This document shows, one piece after another, positions 2 through 35,440 of a stretch of 39,418 bases of DNA. A program made the position numbers and the translations under genes. Position 1 is the first letter of the stretch. Every line of letters begins with the position of its first letter. The stretch is taken from contig JALOQY010000016.1 of NCBI GenBank assembly GCA_025459285.1, positions 1-39,418 on the forward strand, written 5' to 3'. The notes beneath the pieces are model-generated. The model searched no databases, had not been told where the DNA came from, and saw only the letters and a list, made by a program, of their open reading frames with translations. Source of the stretch: Planctomycetota bacterium. Its GTDB lineage: Bacteria; Planctomycetota; JAJSAM01.

Positions 2-637
2 GGCGAGGGCTACCGCGCCCCGAAGCCGATCGAGTTCGACGACCCCTGGGTGGGGAACCCCGACCTGACCTCCGAGCGCAGCGCGAGTTTCGATGTCGGC
101 GCGGAGCAGGAGTTCCTCGGGGGAGACCTGGTCCTCGGCGTGACGTGGTTCTCGCTCCGCACTCGCGACCTCATCGCCTGGGACCCGGAGTCGATGATCC
201 TCGAGAACTTCGCGCGGGCCCGGGTGAGGGGGGCGGAATTCGAGGTCGTCGGCCGCCCGGCCGATGGGCTGCTCCTCCGCGCGTGGTTCACGCGGCAGCA
301 CCCGAAGGACCTCTCCGGTGGCGGGCGCCTCCCCGGCCGGCCCCGATGGTACAGCGGCGGTGAGGCGCGCTGGACCTCCGGGGACCTCACGCTCTCCCTC
401 GGCGTGGAGGCGGCCGGCGACCATCCGGGCACGGGGAAGATCGACCCCGATGGCGACGTGCGCCGCCACCCCGGGAAGCGTCTCCTCGTGGCTCTCCGCG
501 CGAGCTATGCCGCCACGGAATGGCTCTCGCTCCACGCCCGCGTGGAGAACCTCCTCGACCGGGACTGGTACGCCACCGAGGTCTCCCCTCCCGGCAACGG
601 AATCGGCTTCGTGCTGGGGGTGGAGGGGACCTTCTAG
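2..637 (+). CDS. TonB-dependent receptor, C-terminal beta-barrel fragment (5' truncated by window)
   Basis: Frame is open from window position 2 (GEGYRAPKPIEFDDPWVGNPDLTSERSASFDVGAEQEF...); ends LSLHARVENLLDRDWYATEVSPPGNGIGFVLGVEGTF, typical TonB receptor C-terminus (NLxD.Y..., terminal Phe). Confidence 0.85.
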   Translation, partial: GEGYRAPKPIEFDDPWVGNPDLTSERSASFDVGAEQEFLGGDLVLGVTWFSLRTRDLIAWDPESMILENFARARVRGAEFEVVGRPADGLLLRAWFTRQHPKDLSGGGRLPGRPRWYSGGEARWTSGDLTLSLGVEAAGDHPGTGKIDPDGDVRRHPGKRLLVALRASYAATEWLSLHARVENLLDRDWYATEVSPPGNGIGFVLGVEGTF

Positions 638-726
638 CCCGCCGTCCGGAGCCGCACCGGCCGGTGGTAGAATGGCCGTGGATGCCGGCCGTCCGGTGGC
701 GCGCGGGCGGCGGCGGGGAGGGCTTC

Positions 727-3700
727 ATGACGCGACGGGGCGCGGTCGTCGCCGCGGTGATTCTGGCCGCGGTGCTGGTTCTCGCGATCCGGGGTTCCCG
801 GGGGCCCCGACCACCCGCGCCGGAACCGCCGCGCGTCACCTGCACGGTCTTCGGCCGGGTCCGGGCGCCGGAGACCCGGCTCCCGGTGGCGGGCCGGGTG
901 GTCGTGGCGGTCCAGGAGGGGCGGACGTTCCGGAGCGAACCCCTCGGGGAGGACGGCCTCTACGCCATCGAGGGGCTTTCGAGCGGGGCCCTGGTCCTCC
1001 TCGCGGTGGAGGGATGCGCCCCGGCGCGGCAGGCCTTCCCCGCCTGGCCGGGGGATCGGTGCGGCGCGGACCTCGACCTCTTCGCGGGCGGACCGCTCGA
1101 CGCGCGCGTCGTCGACGGCGCCGGTCGACCCGTCCCGGGGGCGCGGGTCTCCGTCACCCCGTACTTCGAACTGGACTGGCCTGCCGACCTGGAGGTCGTG
1201 CCGGCTCTGGCTCCAGTGGCCGAGGCGTTCACGGGACCCGACGGGATCGCGAGGTTCACCGATCCTCCGCGGGCCTTCGCGCACTGGCGCGTGGAGGCAC
1301 CCGGGTCCGGTCGGATCGACACCTTCGAGGGGGTCGGTGACACCGGGGACCCGGTGCAGTTCACCCTCTCCGCACCGGCGTCTCTCACCGGACGAGTCCT
1401 CGACGCGGAGGGGCGCCCGGTGCCGGACGCGAGGGTCGTGGCCACCGAAGCCGGAATGAACGACGACATGGCGGCGGTCGTCTCGCCGGGGACCTGGACC
1501 GACGCCGCGGGAGGCTTCCACCTGACCGGGCTGCCGGCGGACCTGTTGGACCTCGGGGTGGCCCTCCCCGGGGCCGCCCCCCGGTTCCTCGCCCGCGTCC
1601 GCCTGCCGGGAATCCAGCGCATCGACCTCGTGCTTCCGCCCGCGGCGCGGATCCACGGCCGCGTCACCGACCGTCTCACCGGAAGACCGATAGCCGGGGT
1701 GCGGGTCCACGGTTCGTCGACGAATCAGTCAGTCCTCTTTGCCACCGCGGTAGCGACCACCGACGGGGATGGCCGATACGGGATCGACTCGCTGCCGGAG
1801 GGCCGCCTCGCGGTCTCCTGGGTCGTCAAGCAGGGCTACGCCCCGTTCTACTCGGAGCAGTCGTTCGAGGAACGGCCGGGCGCCGAACTCGAGCGCGACA
1901 TCGCGCTCCTCCCCGCCCGCTGCTTCATCGAGGGCCGGGTGACCTCGCCGGAGGGACCCGTCGGAGGGGCCCTTGTCGAAAGCGGCGACGAGGATGCCGT
2001 GACCGACGGCCGGGGGCGCTACCGGCTCGGGCCGCTGGTCGAAGGGGAACACGGGGTCTCGGCCCGCCACCCGGACTTCCTGTCCGGTGATCCGAAGACC
2101 GTGCGGGTCTCCGAAGGAGCGGTCGCGGCGGCCGACTTCGAACTGCGACCCGGTCTCGGTGTGGAGGTCCTGCTCCGGGACCCGGCGGGGTGCCCGCTCT
2201 ACTGGGGCGTGAGCGTGATGGTGGATGCAGAAGATGTCGGGTTGACGGCCGAAGGCGGGACGGAGAGGCGGTTCGAGGTGCGCGGTCTGTCTCCGGGCAG
2301 CGTCATCGTTCGGGTCCGTGCGCCCTGGTGTCCGCGGGAAGTGGTCCGTCGGGTCGAGCCCGCGGATCCCCCGGCGCGACTGGAGGTCGTCCTGCCGGCG
2401 ATGCCTGCCCTGCGATCGGTCCGGGTCCGCGTGCGGGCGGTGGACGGGCCGGTGCCCCCCGGAGCGGGGGTGGAGACCGTCTGGTCCCGATCCGGCGTCT
2501 TCGCCTGGTCGACCAGGGGAAGATGGCCGGTGGATGCCGACGGGGTGGCGGAGATCTCGGGCCGGGAACCTCGCGTCCTTCTGCGGGCCGTGGCCCCGGG
2601 CCGCACCCCGGGCGCGCCGGTGGAGGTCTCCCTCGACGAGGAGGAGTCCGCGGAGCGCGTGCTGGTGCTCGGGCCCGGCCACCCGGTCGCGGGCGTCGTG
2701 CGCGCGGGGGAGGACGGGGCGGCGGTCGGCGGGGCGTGGGTCTGCCTCTGCGCCGGCGGGAGCGAGGCGGCCGGGGAGGCGGCGCGGGATGACCCGTTCA
2801 CGGTCCACGCGGTCGCCGCGGACGACGGTTCCTTCGCCCTCGATCCCGTGCCGCCGGGAGACTATGCGGTGGTCGCGCGGGCGCCGGGTTTCCTCCCGGG
2901 CCTCGCGACGTTTCGCGTGCCGGCGGATGGACCCGTCGAGGTGGACCTGGTCCGGGCGCGGGTCCTCGCGGGGATGCTCCGCCAGGCGGACGGATCGCCG
3001 GCCGCCGGCGTGCTCTTGCGCGCGACCGCGGCGGGGGGGGAGGGAGAGGCAGAAGCGGAGGCGTTCACCCGCGGGGACGGCCTCTTCCTCTTCCGCGACC
3101 TGGCCCCGGGCCGGTGGACGATCGAGCCCGAAGCCGGCGACGCGACCTCGGCGGTCGTGCCCGGTGCCCTGGGCTCCTACGAGGCGGGGGCATACTGCCT
3201 CGTCCTGAGGCTGCCCGCCGGAACGGAGATCCACGGACGGGTCCTCGACGAGGAGGGGCGGGGGATCGCGGGCGCCAGGTTCCAGGCGTCCGACGGCGCG
3301 GGCGGGCGGAAGTCGGGGGAGACGGGTCCGGAGGGGGAGTTCGTCGTGCGGGGGGTGCGGCCCGGGACCGTGGACCTGCGGATCTCCGCCGCCGGATACC
3401 TGGGCCGGCTGCTCACGGGCGTCGAGGCGGGCGCCACGGGCCTCGAGGTGCGGCTGTCCCGGGGCCTCGGCATCGCCGGTGTCGTGCTGTCGGAAACAGG
3501 TGCTTCTGTATCCGGATTACGGATCGTCGCGGAGCCCGTGGACCCCGCGGACCCGTCGTTGGATGTGGAGCGGGTCGCCGACCCGTCGGACGCCGGCGGC
3601 CGCTTCGAGGTCCGCGGACTCGCGGCGGGGAGCTTTCGGCTCGCCGTGGCGCGGCCGCGCATGACACTGGCCGGCGAAGTGCTCCTGGGAGGCAAGTCCG

Positions 3701-4218
3701 TCGAGGCGGGCCGGACCGACGTGCGGCTCGTGCTCTCGCCGGGCGCGGTTGTCGCGGGGTTCGTGACGGATGAGGAAGGCCGGGCGGTCCCCGGCGCCCT
3801 GGTCTATGGGAGCACCGGGGAGGGGGCGGACGGCGGCGGCGACGAGAGCCTGCCCGACGGCTCGTTCGAGATCGGGGGGCTGGCTCCGGGCCGTAGCTGC
3901 CTCCTTTCGGCGCGCGCGCCGGGCCGGGCTGCGGCCCGCCTCCGGGACGTGCCGGCCGGCACCCGCGACGCGCGAATCGTCCTCCTGCGGACGAAGCCGA
4001 TCTCCGGCACGCTGCTCGACGCCGCTGGCCGGCCGGCCGCCGGGGTGCGGCTCACCTTCGTCCCCCGGGGGGACTTCGAGGAACTCCATGCGGAGACGGA
4101 CGCCGACGGCCGCTTCCGACTGGACGCGGCGCCCGCCACCTACGATGTGGTGCGGTGGCCTCGGCTGCTCGGCGTGGCGGAGGGAGGCGCGCGGGACGTG
4201 ATCCTTCGGATGAGGTAG
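727..4218 (+). CDS. Large secreted or membrane-anchored protein with about a dozen carboxypeptidase regulatory-like (CarboxypepD_reg) repeats
   Basis: Frame of ORF 520..4218; likely ATG at 727 gives an N-terminal hydrophobic segment (MTRRGAVVAAVILAAVLVLAI). Repeated motif G.V.D..GRPVPGARV...D..G.F.L..L..G. Confidence 0.85.
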   Translation: MTRRGAVVAAVILAAVLVLAIRGSRGPRPPAPEPPRVTCTVFGRVRAPETRLPVAGRVVVAVQEGRTFRSEPLGEDGLYAIEGLSSGALVLLAVEGCAPARQAFPAWPGDRCGADLDLFAGGPLDARVVDGAGRPVPGARVSVTPYFELDWPADLEVVPALAPVAEAFTGPDGIARFTDPPRAFAHWRVEAPGSGRIDTFEGVGDTGDPVQFTLSAPASLTGRVLDAEGRPVPDARVVATEAGMNDDMAAVVSPGTWTDAAGGFHLTGLPADLLDLGVALPGAAPRFLARVRLPGIQRIDLVLPPAARIHGRVTDRLTGRPIAGVRVHGSSTNQSVLFATAVATTDGDGRYGIDSLPEGRLAVSWVVKQGYAPFYSEQSFEERPGAELERDIALLPARCFIEGRVTSPEGPVGGALVESGDEDAVTDGRGRYRLGPLVEGEHGVSARHPDFLSGDPKTVRVSEGAVAAADFELRPGLGVEVLLRDPAGCPLYWGVSVMVDAEDVGLTAEGGTERRFEVRGLSPGSVIVRVRAPWCPREVVRRVEPADPPARLEVVLPAMPALRSVRVRVRAVDGPVPPGAGVETVWSRSGVFAWSTRGRWPVDADGVAEISGREPRVLLRAVAPGRTPGAPVEVSLDEEESAERVLVLGPGHPVAGVVRAGEDGAAVGGAWVCLCAGGSEAAGEAARDDPFTVHAVAADDGSFALDPVPPGDYAVVARAPGFLPGLATFRVPADGPVEVDLVRARVLAGMLRQADGSPAAGVLLRATAAGGEGEAEAEAFTRGDGLFLFRDLAPGRWTIEPEAGDATSAVVPGALGSYEAGAYCLVLRLPAGTEIHGRVLDEEGRGIAGARFQASDGAGGRKSGETGPEGEFVVRGVRPGTVDLRISAAGYLGRLLTGVEAGATGLEVRLSRGLGIAGVVLSETGASVSGLRIVAEPVDPADPSLDVERVADPSDAGGRFEVRGLAAGSFRLAVARPRMTLAGEVLLGGKSVEAGRTDVRLVLSPGAVVAGFVTDEEGRAVPGALVYGSTGEGADGGGDESLPDGSFEIGGLAPGRSCLLSARAPGRAAARLRDVPAGTRDARIVLLRTKPISGTLLDAAGRPAAGVRLTFVPRGDFEELHAETDADGRFRLDAAPATYDVVRWPRLLGVAEGGARDVILRMR

Positions 4219-30364: not shown

Positions 30365-31126
30365 ATGGGAGAGAACCTGAACCTCGACCGGGCGGCCGCT
30401 CTGGAAGCGGACTTCATGACACGGGTTTCGGCGAGTGTCGCGCGCACGGACACCTTCCCGGTCACGGGGCGGCTCCGGCGCCGGGCGCGACGCGACGAGG
30501 ACTACCCGCCGGATTTCGAGGACGAAGTGCGGCGGCTCCTCCTCGCCGAGGGGCTCCTCGCGGGGGAGGTCCCGGAGCGCCTGCCCCGCGGGGCTCGGGC
30601 GCTGTGGACCGTGCGGCGCTGGCCTCTGGTCGGCCGGCCCTCGCTCCTGATCGCGGCCGGGGTGCGCCACGCGTTCCGGGCGCTCGCCCTGTCGCTCCCC
30701 GCGCCACCGCTTCCCGCGGCGGAGGGGCTGACCGTCCTGCCCCCGGACCGGGGTTCGCCCGTCTCCGCCGTGGCGCTGTCCTCCTCGGGATGGGCCGGCC
30801 GGCCCGGGGAGGTTCCGGCCGGAACGGAGCTGTGGCTCGTGGAGCCCGCGCCGGGCGGGGGGTTCCGGTTGGCCTTCGGGCCCGCCCGGCCTCTGCCGGA
30901 GCACTTCGCCCTGGAGACGGAGACGGAACTCCTCCGCCGCGCCGCGCGCCACACCGCCGCCCGGAGAGCCGATCTGGTCCTCCACGGCCTCCCCGCGGAC
31001 CGGGTCGCCGCGGAGACCGGGGTGCCGCTCATGCTCGTAGAGCGGGCCTTCCGCGATGAAGCGGCCCGTGACGAGTTCCTGCTCCTGCGGGAAGAAGACG
31101 GTACGCTGGTGCTGAGGAGGGCCTGA
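30365..31126 (+). CDS. Hypothetical protein with possible C-terminal winged-helix domain; first gene of the ESCRT-like operon
   Basis: MGENLNLDRAAALEADFMTRV...; C-term ADLVLHGLPADRVAAETGVPLMLVERAFRDEAARDEFLLLREEDGTLVLRRA reads as helix-turn-helix plus beta-wing; zero-gap with next CDS. Confidence 0.75.
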   Translation: MGENLNLDRAAALEADFMTRVSASVARTDTFPVTGRLRRRARRDEDYPPDFEDEVRRLLLAEGLLAGEVPERLPRGARALWTVRRWPLVGRPSLLIAAGVRHAFRALALSLPAPPLPAAEGLTVLPPDRGSPVSAVALSSSGWAGRPGEVPAGTELWLVEPAPGGGFRLAFGPARPLPEHFALETETELLRRAARHTAARRADLVLHGLPADRVAAETGVPLMLVERAFRDEAARDEFLLLREEDGTLVLRRA

Positions 31127-31765
31127 TTGTCCATACTCGACCGGATCCGGAAGCTCTTCGGCGGGGAGGAAATCCCCGAGGAGGCCGCCCGCATCTACCG
31201 GATGAGCCGGGACGAGCGGGAGGCCCTCGAACGCTTCGAGGAAGAGCGGGGCCGCGCCCACCGCCATCGCCTGACGCTGATGGATGACGTGTCCGCGCTG
31301 GCCGAAGAGGAGGAGAAACTGCTCGACAGGGGGCGGGCGGAGACCTCCGGCGTCCGCCGCCGGCTCGTGGCGAAGCAGGTAGCGGAGGTGCGGTCGGCGG
31401 TGGAGGCGCTGCTCCATCGCGTGGACCTCCTGACGCGACGGATCGCCGTCTTCGACCGGCAGACGGGGCTCATCCGGGACCGTGCGGTACTGGCCGCGCC
31501 GCTTCCCGGCCTCGACGAGGTCGAACGGACGGCGGGCGACGCGCTGGCCGCCCGGCGGAGCTTCGAGGAGGTGGAGGCGGCCTCGGAGCTGGCCGCGGCC
31601 GTCGCGCGGCCAACGGACGTGAGCGAAGCGGAGCGGCGGGCGGAACGCGCCTTCGCCGCGGAGCACGAGATCGAACCCTCGTTCGAAGAGATGCTCGCCG
31701 AAGAGGAGGCGCGCCTCCGTCCCCGGCGATCGGACGAGAAAGCCACGGAGGCGCTCGAGGGGTGA
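31127..31765 (+). CDS. Small coiled-coil protein A, putative divergent ESCRT-III/Snf7-like
   Basis: TTG start directly after the previous stop; amphipathic N-terminus MSILDRIRKLFGG; long helices; VRRRLVAKQVAEVRSAVEALL resembles protein B; acidic C-terminus. Confidence 0.75.
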   Translation: MSILDRIRKLFGGEEIPEEAARIYRMSRDEREALERFEEERGRAHRHRLTLMDDVSALAEEEEKLLDRGRAETSGVRRRLVAKQVAEVRSAVEALLHRVDLLTRRIAVFDRQTGLIRDRAVLAAPLPGLDEVERTAGDALAARRSFEEVEAASELAAAVARPTDVSEAERRAERAFAAEHEIEPSFEEMLAEEEARLRPRRSDEKATEALEG

Positions 31766-31769
31766 ACGG

Positions 31770-32387
31770 ATGGGATTTCTCGACTGGTTCCGCCGTGACA
31801 AGAAACTGACCGACTACTCACCGGAGGACCTTCGCCGCGAGGAGGGGAGGCTCGAAATCCGGGAGGCGCAGGCCGTGTCCCGGCTGGAGAAGGCCGAGGA
31901 GGCGCGCAAGGAGGTCTTCCGGCAGGGACTGGCCGTGAAGTCCCCGGTCCGGCGGCGGATCCTCGCCCGGAAGTACGAGGAGAGGGAGACGGAAATCCGG
32001 CGCCTCGAATCGGAGATCTCGCGGATCCTCAAGGAGAACATGACCGTCTCCGCGCTGCGCTACCGGCTGGAGCGCAAGGGCAAGTCGGAGTCGGCGCTCC
32101 TGAAGAAGATCGGAGAGGCGGACGTCGAGGCGCTCCGCGAGCTCGTGGAGAACGACGGGGTCGGCGAGGAGATGTACCGGGAGAAACTCACGACCCTCCT
32201 CGGCGTGCTCGAAGGGGCGGAGGCCGAGGCCGACCCGCTCGCGGCCGTGGGCCGGGAGGGCCGCGCCGTCCTCGAGGTCTGGGAGCGCATGGACCAGGGC
32301 GCGATCGCCTCCGTGGAGGAGGGGCTCCGGGAGGCCCGGGACCTCGCCGGTGGAACGGTCCCCGAATCGGGGGAAAGCCAGGCCTGA
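31770..32387 (+). CDS. Small coiled-coil protein B, putative divergent ESCRT-III/Snf7-like
   Basis: MGFLDWFRRDKKL N-terminus, VRRRILARKYEERETEIRRLESEISRILKENMTVSAL helix, C-terminal SVEEGLREARDL resembling the MIM1-like motif of protein C. Confidence 0.77.
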   Translation: MGFLDWFRRDKKLTDYSPEDLRREEGRLEIREAQAVSRLEKAEEARKEVFRQGLAVKSPVRRRILARKYEERETEIRRLESEISRILKENMTVSALRYRLERKGKSESALLKKIGEADVEALRELVENDGVGEEMYREKLTTLLGVLEGAEAEADPLAAVGREGRAVLEVWERMDQGAIASVEEGLREARDLAGGTVPESGESQA

Positions 32388-32388
32388 C

Positions 32389-32994
32389 ATGGGGATCTTC
32401 AAGTCGAAGGCCGAGAAGCGGATCGAGTGGGAGATCACGGTCCGCAAGGGGCTCGCGCGCATCCGCCGGCAGATCGGGAGCCTCGAGCGGAACGAGCAGG
32501 GCTTCGTGGCGAAGGCGCGGCGCGCGAAGGCGATGGGGGCCGCCGACCAGTTCGCGTTCCTCCGGGCGACGCTGAAGAAGACGGCGTCCCAGCGGCGACT
32601 CCTCGAGCGGCAGCTCCTGAACCTGGAGACCGCGGTGCAGATCCGCGACCAGGTCGAGGCGAACGCCTCCTTTGCCGAGGCCATGGGCGCCGTGAGCCGG
32701 GCCATCGGACAGATGTTCTCGTCCGTGGACCTGACGAAGACCCAGATGCAGTTCGAGAAGGCGATGGGGCAGGCGCAGAGCATGGAGGAGCGCGTCGCCC
32801 TCTTCCTCGACATGTCGGCGGGAGCGATGACCGACTACGAGGGAGCGCCGGAGGATCTCGTGCCGGACGACGAGGTGGACCGCATGCTCGGCGAGGAGGC
32901 CGCCGCCGCGGAGGGCGCGGTGAACGACCGCGAGATCGCCGAGGGGCTGGCCGCCGTCCGGGACGAACTCCGGAAGGACCGGGAGCGGAAATAG
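32389..32994 (+). CDS. Small coiled-coil protein C, putative ESCRT-III (CHMP/Vps2-like) subunit
   Basis: Basic N-terminal helices, ANASFAEAMGAVSRAIGQMFSSVDLTKTQMQFEKAMGQAQSMEERV resembling CHMP1/CHMP2 alpha3-alpha4, EVDRMLGEEAAAAEGAV alpha5-like, C-terminal DREIAEGLAAVRDEL MIM1-like. Confidence 0.82.
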   Translation: MGIFKSKAEKRIEWEITVRKGLARIRRQIGSLERNEQGFVAKARRAKAMGAADQFAFLRATLKKTASQRRLLERQLLNLETAVQIRDQVEANASFAEAMGAVSRAIGQMFSSVDLTKTQMQFEKAMGQAQSMEERVALFLDMSAGAMTDYEGAPEDLVPDDEVDRMLGEEAAAAEGAVNDREIAEGLAAVRDELRKDRERK

Positions 32995-33007: not shown

Positions 33008-34087
33008 GTGCTGGACTTCGAACTGCGCAACTTCCGGCGACTGCGCGAAGAGGGCCTTGCCGCGTTCCGCGCGGGGCGCCGCCGGGAGGCGCGGCTCACG
33101 CTCCTTCGTGCGTCGGAGGCGCTCTTCCGGATCGCCTCGAAGTCCGACGAGCCCTTCCGGTCGGAGCGGAGCCGGGGGGCGCGCGAACTCCTCGGCCTCG
33201 CGAGGAGCATCTCCGGGGAAGCGCCCGCGGAGGGGGTGGGGGGCGAGGGCGCGCGCTTCGTCCCCGCCGAGCGGCCCGCCGTCACCTTCGCTTCCGTGGC
33301 CGGGCTCGACGAGGTGAAGGAGGAGATCCGGCTCCGGATGGTCTACCCCTTCCTCCACCCGGAGGCCGCGGCACGGTACGGGGTGCGGACCGGCGGCGGG
33401 CTCCTCCTTTACGGGCCGCCGGGCACCGGGAAGACGCTCCTCGCCCGGGCCACGGCGGGGGAGATCGACGCGGCCTTCTACACCGTGCGCCCCTCGGACG
33501 TCCTGTCGAAGTGGGTGGGGGAGGCGGAGAAAAACGTCGCCGCCCTCTTCGCCGAGGCGCGTGCGCGGCCGCGATCGGTGGTCTTCATCGACGAGGCGGA
33601 GGCGCTCGCCCCGGTGCGCACGGGTGACGCCGGCTCGGTGATGAGCCGGGTCGTCCCGCAGTTCCTCGCCGAACTGGAGGGGGTCGCGGGACGCGGCACG
33701 AACGCCCTCCTCTTCATCGGGGCGACGAACGCCCCCTGGAACCTCGACCCGGCGATCCTCCGGCCCGGGCGGTTCGACGAGTTGGTGTACGTCCCCCTGC
33801 CCGACGCCGAGGCGCGCGCGGGGATCCTCGCCCTCGAACTGGCCGGCAAGCCGCTGGTGCCGGAGGCGGACCTGGAGGCCCTGGCCGCCGCGCTCGACGG
33901 TTACTCCGGCGCCGACCTCCGGCTCGTGGTGGAGAAGGCCGTGGGGGAGTCGTTCCTGTCGGAGGTCCGGGGGGGCGCGCCACGCCGGATCGGGGTCGAG
34001 GATCTGCTGGCGGCGGCCCGGGAAGTCGCGCCGTCCGTGGCCCCGGAGGCGCTGAAGCGGTACGAGGAGTGGGCCGGGGCGGCGTGA
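33008..34087 (+). CDS. Vps4-like AAA ATPase with N-terminal MIT-like domain
   Basis: N-term about 65 aa three-helix MIT-like; VTFASVAGLDEVKEEIRLRMVYPFLHP, LLLYGPPGTGKTLLARATAGE, SDVLSKWVGEAEKNV pore loop 1, VVFIDEAEAL, GATNAPWNLDPAILRPGRFDELVYVPLPD, DGYSGADLRLVVEKAV, terminal helix PEALKRYEEWAG. Confidence 0.88.
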   Translation: MLDFELRNFRRLREEGLAAFRAGRRREARLTLLRASEALFRIASKSDEPFRSERSRGARELLGLARSISGEAPAEGVGGEGARFVPAERPAVTFASVAGLDEVKEEIRLRMVYPFLHPEAAARYGVRTGGGLLLYGPPGTGKTLLARATAGEIDAAFYTVRPSDVLSKWVGEAEKNVAALFAEARARPRSVVFIDEAEALAPVRTGDAGSVMSRVVPQFLAELEGVAGRGTNALLFIGATNAPWNLDPAILRPGRFDELVYVPLPDAEARAGILALELAGKPLVPEADLEALAAALDGYSGADLRLVVEKAVGESFLSEVRGGAPRRIGVEDLLAAAREVAPSVAPEALKRYEEWAGAA

Positions 34088-35120: not shown

Positions 35121-35378
35121 CGCGGGCGCCTCGGCGACGGCCGTGCAACCGGGGAGTTAGCGGTGCCCTGTACCCGCAATCCGCTCCAGCGGGGGTGATG
35201 TCGGACCGAGGCCATCTTCGTAGTTGGTTACCGTGCGGCAAGTGGTGTCGAAGGCCATGTCCCGTGCAACGGGGGGCCGTGAACCAGGTCAGGCCCTGAC
35301 GGGAGCATCCTTAAGCGGAATTCCCCCGTGTGCCGCGGGGTAGCGTGGCTGGAGCCGGCTACCGACCGGGACCTTCTG
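35121..35378 (+). ncRNA. ffs: Signal recognition particle RNA, bacterial large type (with Alu domain)
   Basis: GGGGAGTTAGCGGTGCCCTGTACCCGCAATCCGCT (Alu) and GAACCAGGTCAGGCCCTGACGGGAGCATCCTTAAGCGGAATTCCCCCGTGTGCCGCGGGGTAGCGTGGCTGGAG closely parallel B. subtilis scRNA; located upstream of dnaX as in Bacillus. Ends approximate. Confidence 0.92.
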
Positions 35379-35440
35379 CGGAGTGGTCGACGCGAGACGC
35401 ACGGCCATCCTCGGGGCGCCCGCCCTGTTCGGGGGCGCCC

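Follow-up and report, generated by a model that had tools for sequence, protein, structure and literature searches.

A candidate ESCRT-III/Vps4 membrane-remodelling operon in uncultured Planctomycetota

ESCRT subunits polymerise on membranes, and the ATPase Vps4, recruited through the binding of MIT domains to MIM motifs, remodels the polymer by extracting subunits from it. In the literature, machinery combining ESCRT-III with a Vps4-type ATPase is limited to archaea and eukaryotes. No Vps4-type partner is known for the related PspA and Vipp1 proteins (PMC8281802), and the question of a bacterial ATPase was left open (Liu et al., 2021; PMC8281802). The available portions of a more recent survey report VPS4-like genes without snf7 in scattered bacteria, as well as bacterial Snf7 proteins with a transmembrane segment, encoded together with AAA genes in longer operons that contain transporter genes (Ravi et al., 2024; PMC11237479). 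Bacterial Snf7-AAA neighbourhoods have already been mentioned in passing, then, and in what could be consulted of prior descriptions the planctomycete system presented here was not found. A literature search on planctomycete ESCRT, incomplete in its coverage so that earlier work may exist, likewise returned no account of the operon. What makes the case worth attention is that uncultured planctomycetes, members of a phylum devoid of canonical FtsZ, the division protein most bacteria rely on, carry genes of ESCRT-III-type filaments and of Vps4-type motor ATPases in one operon.

The window, that is, the whole stretch of 39,418 nucleotides that we analysed (contig JALOQY010000016.1 of assembly GCA_025459285.1), contains five genes in the order X-A-B-C-V1, all on the forward strand and spaced by 13 nt at most. 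Gene X (30365-31126, 253 aa) opens the cluster; it matched no Pfam family, and its C-terminal 65 residues or so form a candidate winged helix, recognised by eye only. It is followed by A (31127-31765, 212 aa, TTG start), a long-helix protein with a hydrophobic N-terminus, by B (31770-32387, 205 aa), by C (32389-32994, 201 aa, running from ATG to TAG) and by V1 (33008-34087, 359 aa, GTG start). The reading frame of C is as the preliminary description of this DNA had given it, and all the peptides quoted there are present. We hold it to be very probable that these genes encode a bacterial ESCRT-III/Vps4 membrane-remodelling module. The contig itself is bacterial and planctomycetal: besides dnaX, recR and UbiA, it encodes a sigma-54 regulator and a large SRP RNA of the bacterial type, and its nearest named relatives are metagenome-assembled genomes of Planctomycetota. 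The SRP RNA, at 35141-35404, lies just upstream of the dnaX frame and overlaps its start. At the other end of the window, a 1232-aa open reading frame (520-4218) displays several carboxypeptidase-regulatory-like beta-sandwich domains.

Protein C had been read, from the letters alone, as a CHMP1/CHMP2-like ESCRT-III subunit rather than a PspA-like one. As regards the family, profile comparisons agree. The Pfam Snf7 model matches C at E 2.7e-6, with a score of 27.6 bits that exceeds the curated cut-off of 27.3 by a margin of 0.3 bits (31.1 bits in the genome search), and it also matches 21 of 22 relatives (E≤1), whereas PspA_IM30 (PF04012) has no match to C at E≤1. Across 250 genomes of the phylum, none of the PF04012 matches falls at a C locus, and 19 of the 47 genomes bearing C have a separate PspA gene elsewhere. 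Homologues of C, aligned over the full length at 38-69% identity, are found in dozens of genomes of many families, which marks C as a real gene. While the family is clear, the subtype cannot be assigned, because a single C sequence finds CHMP2A and CHMP1B as its best PDB matches and the family profile finds CHMP3 (E 1.5e-4); Snf7 is also among the closest solved proteins. The CHMP1/CHMP2 half of the earlier reading is thus not established.

The predicted fold points the same way. An AlphaFold2 model of C, built with 44 homologues, has helices at residues 7-49, 52-109, 115-149 and 160-200; the alpha1-alpha2 hairpin is present with a pLDDT of about 90 (73 overall), and further C-terminal helices lie beyond it. 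When this model was compared with the PDB by Foldseek, CHMP2A ranked first (probability 1.00, E 0.07, not significant), followed by archaeal CdvB2 and CdvB and by IST1-CHMP1B, while no Vipp1 chain appears before rank 41; none of these E-values is significant, which is to be expected of long helices, and the list is consistent with the sequence result rather than a proof of it. Profiles and model together support the assignment of C to ESCRT-III, in the Snf7 family, and not to PspA, and independent support comes from the linked gene for a Vps4-type ATPase with an MIT-like domain.

Other features of the family concern its charge and its C-terminal half. The mean charge is +11.9 in the N-terminal part and -12.8 in the C-terminal part. 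An alpha5-like segment (residues 159-167; 32863-32889, forward strand), of consensus SDxEIDRMI, aligns with EIDRIL of CHMP3 and carries more information than the linkers on either side (3.21 versus 2.0 bits per column); this segment and the C-terminal helix are both better conserved than the linkers between them. For the C-terminal MIM that had been proposed in C, the wording needs correcting: residues 180-194 (DREIAEGLAAVRDEL; 32926-32970, forward strand) form a MIM1-like helix fitting a relaxed MIM1 pattern, but the canonical Arg is replaced by Gly (DREIAEGLAAVR). With Gly allowed for Arg, the pattern occurs in 29 of 35 non-redundant relatives, against a mean of 0.26 in shuffled sequences, an excess to be taken as descriptive because the pattern was relaxed after the sequences had been inspected. 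The strict pattern is found in five of the 35, and C of one sister lineage has a strictly canonical MIM1.

Judged from their sequences, V1 and V2, the latter being a second ATPase encoded in many relatives, are Vps4-type ATPases, in which an MIT-like domain at the N-terminus is followed by one AAA cassette. The single cassette of V1 (33287-33943, forward strand) has the Walker A motif GPPGTGKT, the Walker B motif FIDE, the pore loop SKWVGE and the signature ATNxPWxLD, in an alignment with CdvC, VPS4B, Vps4, Cdc48 and FtsH. The signature ATNxPWx[LIM]D, common to Vps4 and CdvC, is present in all sampled V1 and V2, and the Vps4-type pore loop SK[WYF]xG[ED] in most of them. V1 scores slightly higher on the CDC48 profile (216 bits) than on that of CdvC (203 bits), and its Vps4_C match (18.1 bits) is below the cut-off of 21.3. 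In a tree of AAA domains whose references were few PDB chain sequences, without katanin, spastin or Asgard Vps4, V1, archaeal CdvC and eukaryotic Vps4 share a clade (UFBoot 100) to which neither Cdc48 D1/D2 nor FtsH belongs; V2 is placed as sister, weakly supported.

The MIT-like domain of V1 is predicted to be a three-helix region of about residues 1-72 (33008-33223, forward strand), on the basis of profile matches. Its profile matches residues 9-69 of chitin synthase 1 (2mpk) at 2.4e-4, a region that we take to be an MIT domain, and the N-terminus of archaeal Vps4 (2w2u) at 0.5. For V2, the top PDB matches of the corresponding profile are the MIT domain of VPS4B (E 0.001-0.003), and the N-terminal domains of V1 and V2 are homologous to each other (hhalign, 5.6e-9). 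The Pfam MIT model matches single members weakly, at 0.006-0.01. A stand-alone protein encoded between B and V2 in three relatives (L070:6642-7730, also L069 and L072) has an N-terminal part homologous to the MIT-like domain of V2.

The status of A and B is less direct. Neither matches Snf7 or has a Pfam family. Profile comparison gives a weak link between A and B (E 1.1e-4) and another between B and C (E 2.4e-4), with no signal between A and C. The AlphaFold2 model of B (pLDDT 84) contains a confidently predicted helical hairpin (18-55/59-103); for this model Foldseek lists CdvB and CdvB2 first, with E-values that are not significant, and Vipp1 chains lower down. Loci without a direct B match have a divergent B-like open reading frame between A and V2 or C. 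These profiles and models suggest that A and B are probably ESCRT-III-like partners and candidate divergent paralogues of C.

The cluster recurs widely. Our set comprises 54 loci, namely 53 named relatives and the window, obtained by an alignment-based search; a search of the named genomes with the single C sequence found nothing. None of the named loci belongs to a cultured carrier. A profile of the C family picks out 47 of 250 sampled genomes of the phylum, belonging to 22 families, and separates these sharply from the remainder. The order in relatives is often X-A-B-(B')-V2-C-V1, where B' is a second copy of B present in some of them; certain lineages are without V2 or V1. In the window V2 is missing, and a search of the genome to which it belongs yielded no other close V-type gene. 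Full context is available for 33 loci: 32 of these keep X, 31 keep A, and all 33 have a Vps4-type ATPase gene near C, 12 of them two. In 23 of the 54 loci a syntenic SPFH/Band_7-like gene lies either after V1 or ahead of X (e.g. L095:9357-11234), and its product matches Band_7 at E 2.6e-5 in one member; SPFH-type genes also adjoin ESCRT loci of archaea and PspA loci of bacteria (PMC10936438). Three loci (L055:4636-5235, L056 and L105) encode a lipoprotein-like coiled-coil protein shortly upstream of C, and two relatives (L062 and L059) carry the labels 'Hydrogenedentes' and 'Sumerlaeota'. No FtsZ above the curated cut-off was found in the 250 sampled genomes; nine Planctomycetota genomes, none of them bearing C, have weak FtsZ-like proteins below it. 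With canonical FtsZ missing throughout the phylum sample, co-occurrence with FtsZ is uninformative about function.

Gene order, conservation, homology to Snf7 and Vps4, the MIT-like domain, the MIM-like motif and the polarity of charge are observed. From these, a scenario may be drawn along the lines of known ESCRT systems. C, with A and B, would embed a hydrophobic N-terminal segment and the basic alpha1 in the cytoplasmic membrane, and would polymerise via an open alpha1-alpha2 hairpin. The MIT domain of V1 could then bind the MIM1-like helix in the acidic tail of C, and V1, together with V2 in many relatives, would pull subunits through the SKWVGE pore loop. Extraction of subunits would change the composition of the filament, so that the membrane may be constricted or cut.

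Several other explanations have to be weighed against this one. C could be a divergent phage-shock-type PspA or Vipp1, with the AAA gene an incidental neighbour. PspA and Snf7 form one superfamily (PMC8281802), so that C must share the hairpin in either case, and Vipp1 chains do appear lower in the Foldseek lists of both C and B. Against this, PspA_IM30 is silent at every C locus of the 47 genomes, 19 of which own a separate PspA, Snf7 recognises nearly all relatives, and the Vps4-type ATPase is linked to C wherever full context is available; we regard this explanation as very improbable. Little more credit goes to the idea that a Cdc48-like unfoldase acting on soluble proteins uses A, B and C as coiled-coil adaptors, their likeness to ESCRT being convergent. 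The marginal preference of V1 for the CDC48 profile would fit, as would the lack of a recognised family for A and B and the tendency of Foldseek to match long-helix proteins to many coiled coils without significance; yet V1 groups with CdvC and Vps4 at full bootstrap support and carries ATNxPWxLD, an MIT-like domain and a MIM-like tail co-occur, and ESCRT-III chains top the Foldseek lists of both C and B, which makes such adaptors improbable. As for archaeal or eukaryotic DNA brought in by contamination or mis-binning, the named relatives are all metagenome-assembled genomes, but the bacterial markers sit on the same contig and dozens of independent assemblies show the same order of genes; the chance of an artefact is negligible. 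Mere chance resemblance of C to ESCRT-III was also considered, and rejected in view of the Snf7 E-value, of its matches to 21 of 22 relatives and of the profile match to CHMP3.

If the module is ESCRT-III/Vps4 by descent, its use is another matter. The leading roles would be the division or budding of FtsZ-less lineages, or the repair or shaping of cell and internal membranes. The lack of canonical FtsZ in the sampled Planctomycetota makes a role in division possible, though unproven, and the presence of the module in only about a fifth of them means that the phylum does not depend on it as a general division machine. That the module serves membrane repair, vesiculation or the shaping of internal membranes, and not division, has in our opinion an even chance of being right: most planctomycetes divide without it, as 47 carriers among 250 FtsZ-less genomes attest, and the syntenic SPFH/Band_7-like gene fits this role, but no gene of the operon is specific to repair or secretion, and some carriers also keep PspA for repair. 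More tentatively, and at less than even odds, FtsZ-less planctomycetes may divide or shape their internal membranes by a full ESCRT-III/Vps4 machine, with three to four paralogues, two Vps4 types, SPFH-like partners and possibly winged-helix ones. Were this true, ESCRT with Vps4 would not be an archaeal-eukaryotic invention, or else would have crossed early into bacteria.

How, then, does this ensemble compare with the systems already described? PspA and Vipp1 (IM30) belong to the same superfamily as C and share with it a hairpin core and a hydrophobic N-terminus; they differ in that C goes unmatched by their profile and coexists with true PspA. The available portions of the survey of bacterial neighbourhoods (Ravi et al., 2024; PMC11237479) give no account of a planctomycete X-A-B-V2-C-V1 cluster equipped with MIT and MIM. 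Eukaryotic ESCRT-III (CHMP1-7/Snf7/Vps24/Vps2) with Vps4 resembles the planctomycete set through the Snf7 domain, the alpha5-like segment, the MIM1-like tail and the MIT-AAA ATPase, whereas no ESCRT-0, ESCRT-I or ubiquitin parts were found in the planctomycete cluster, and its ATPase is without an obvious Vps4 beta-domain insertion. The Cdv system of Sulfolobales (CdvB/CdvC) likewise combines several small subunits of ESCRT-III type with an MIT-AAA Vps4; V1 groups with CdvC, and CdvB and CdvB2 chains stand high among the Foldseek matches of both C and B. By contrast with Cdv, no CdvA was recognised in the planctomycete cluster, whose genes X, A and B match no Pfam family, and many planctomycete loci have an SPFH-like partner as well as two Vps4 types, in hosts that are FtsZ-less bacteria.
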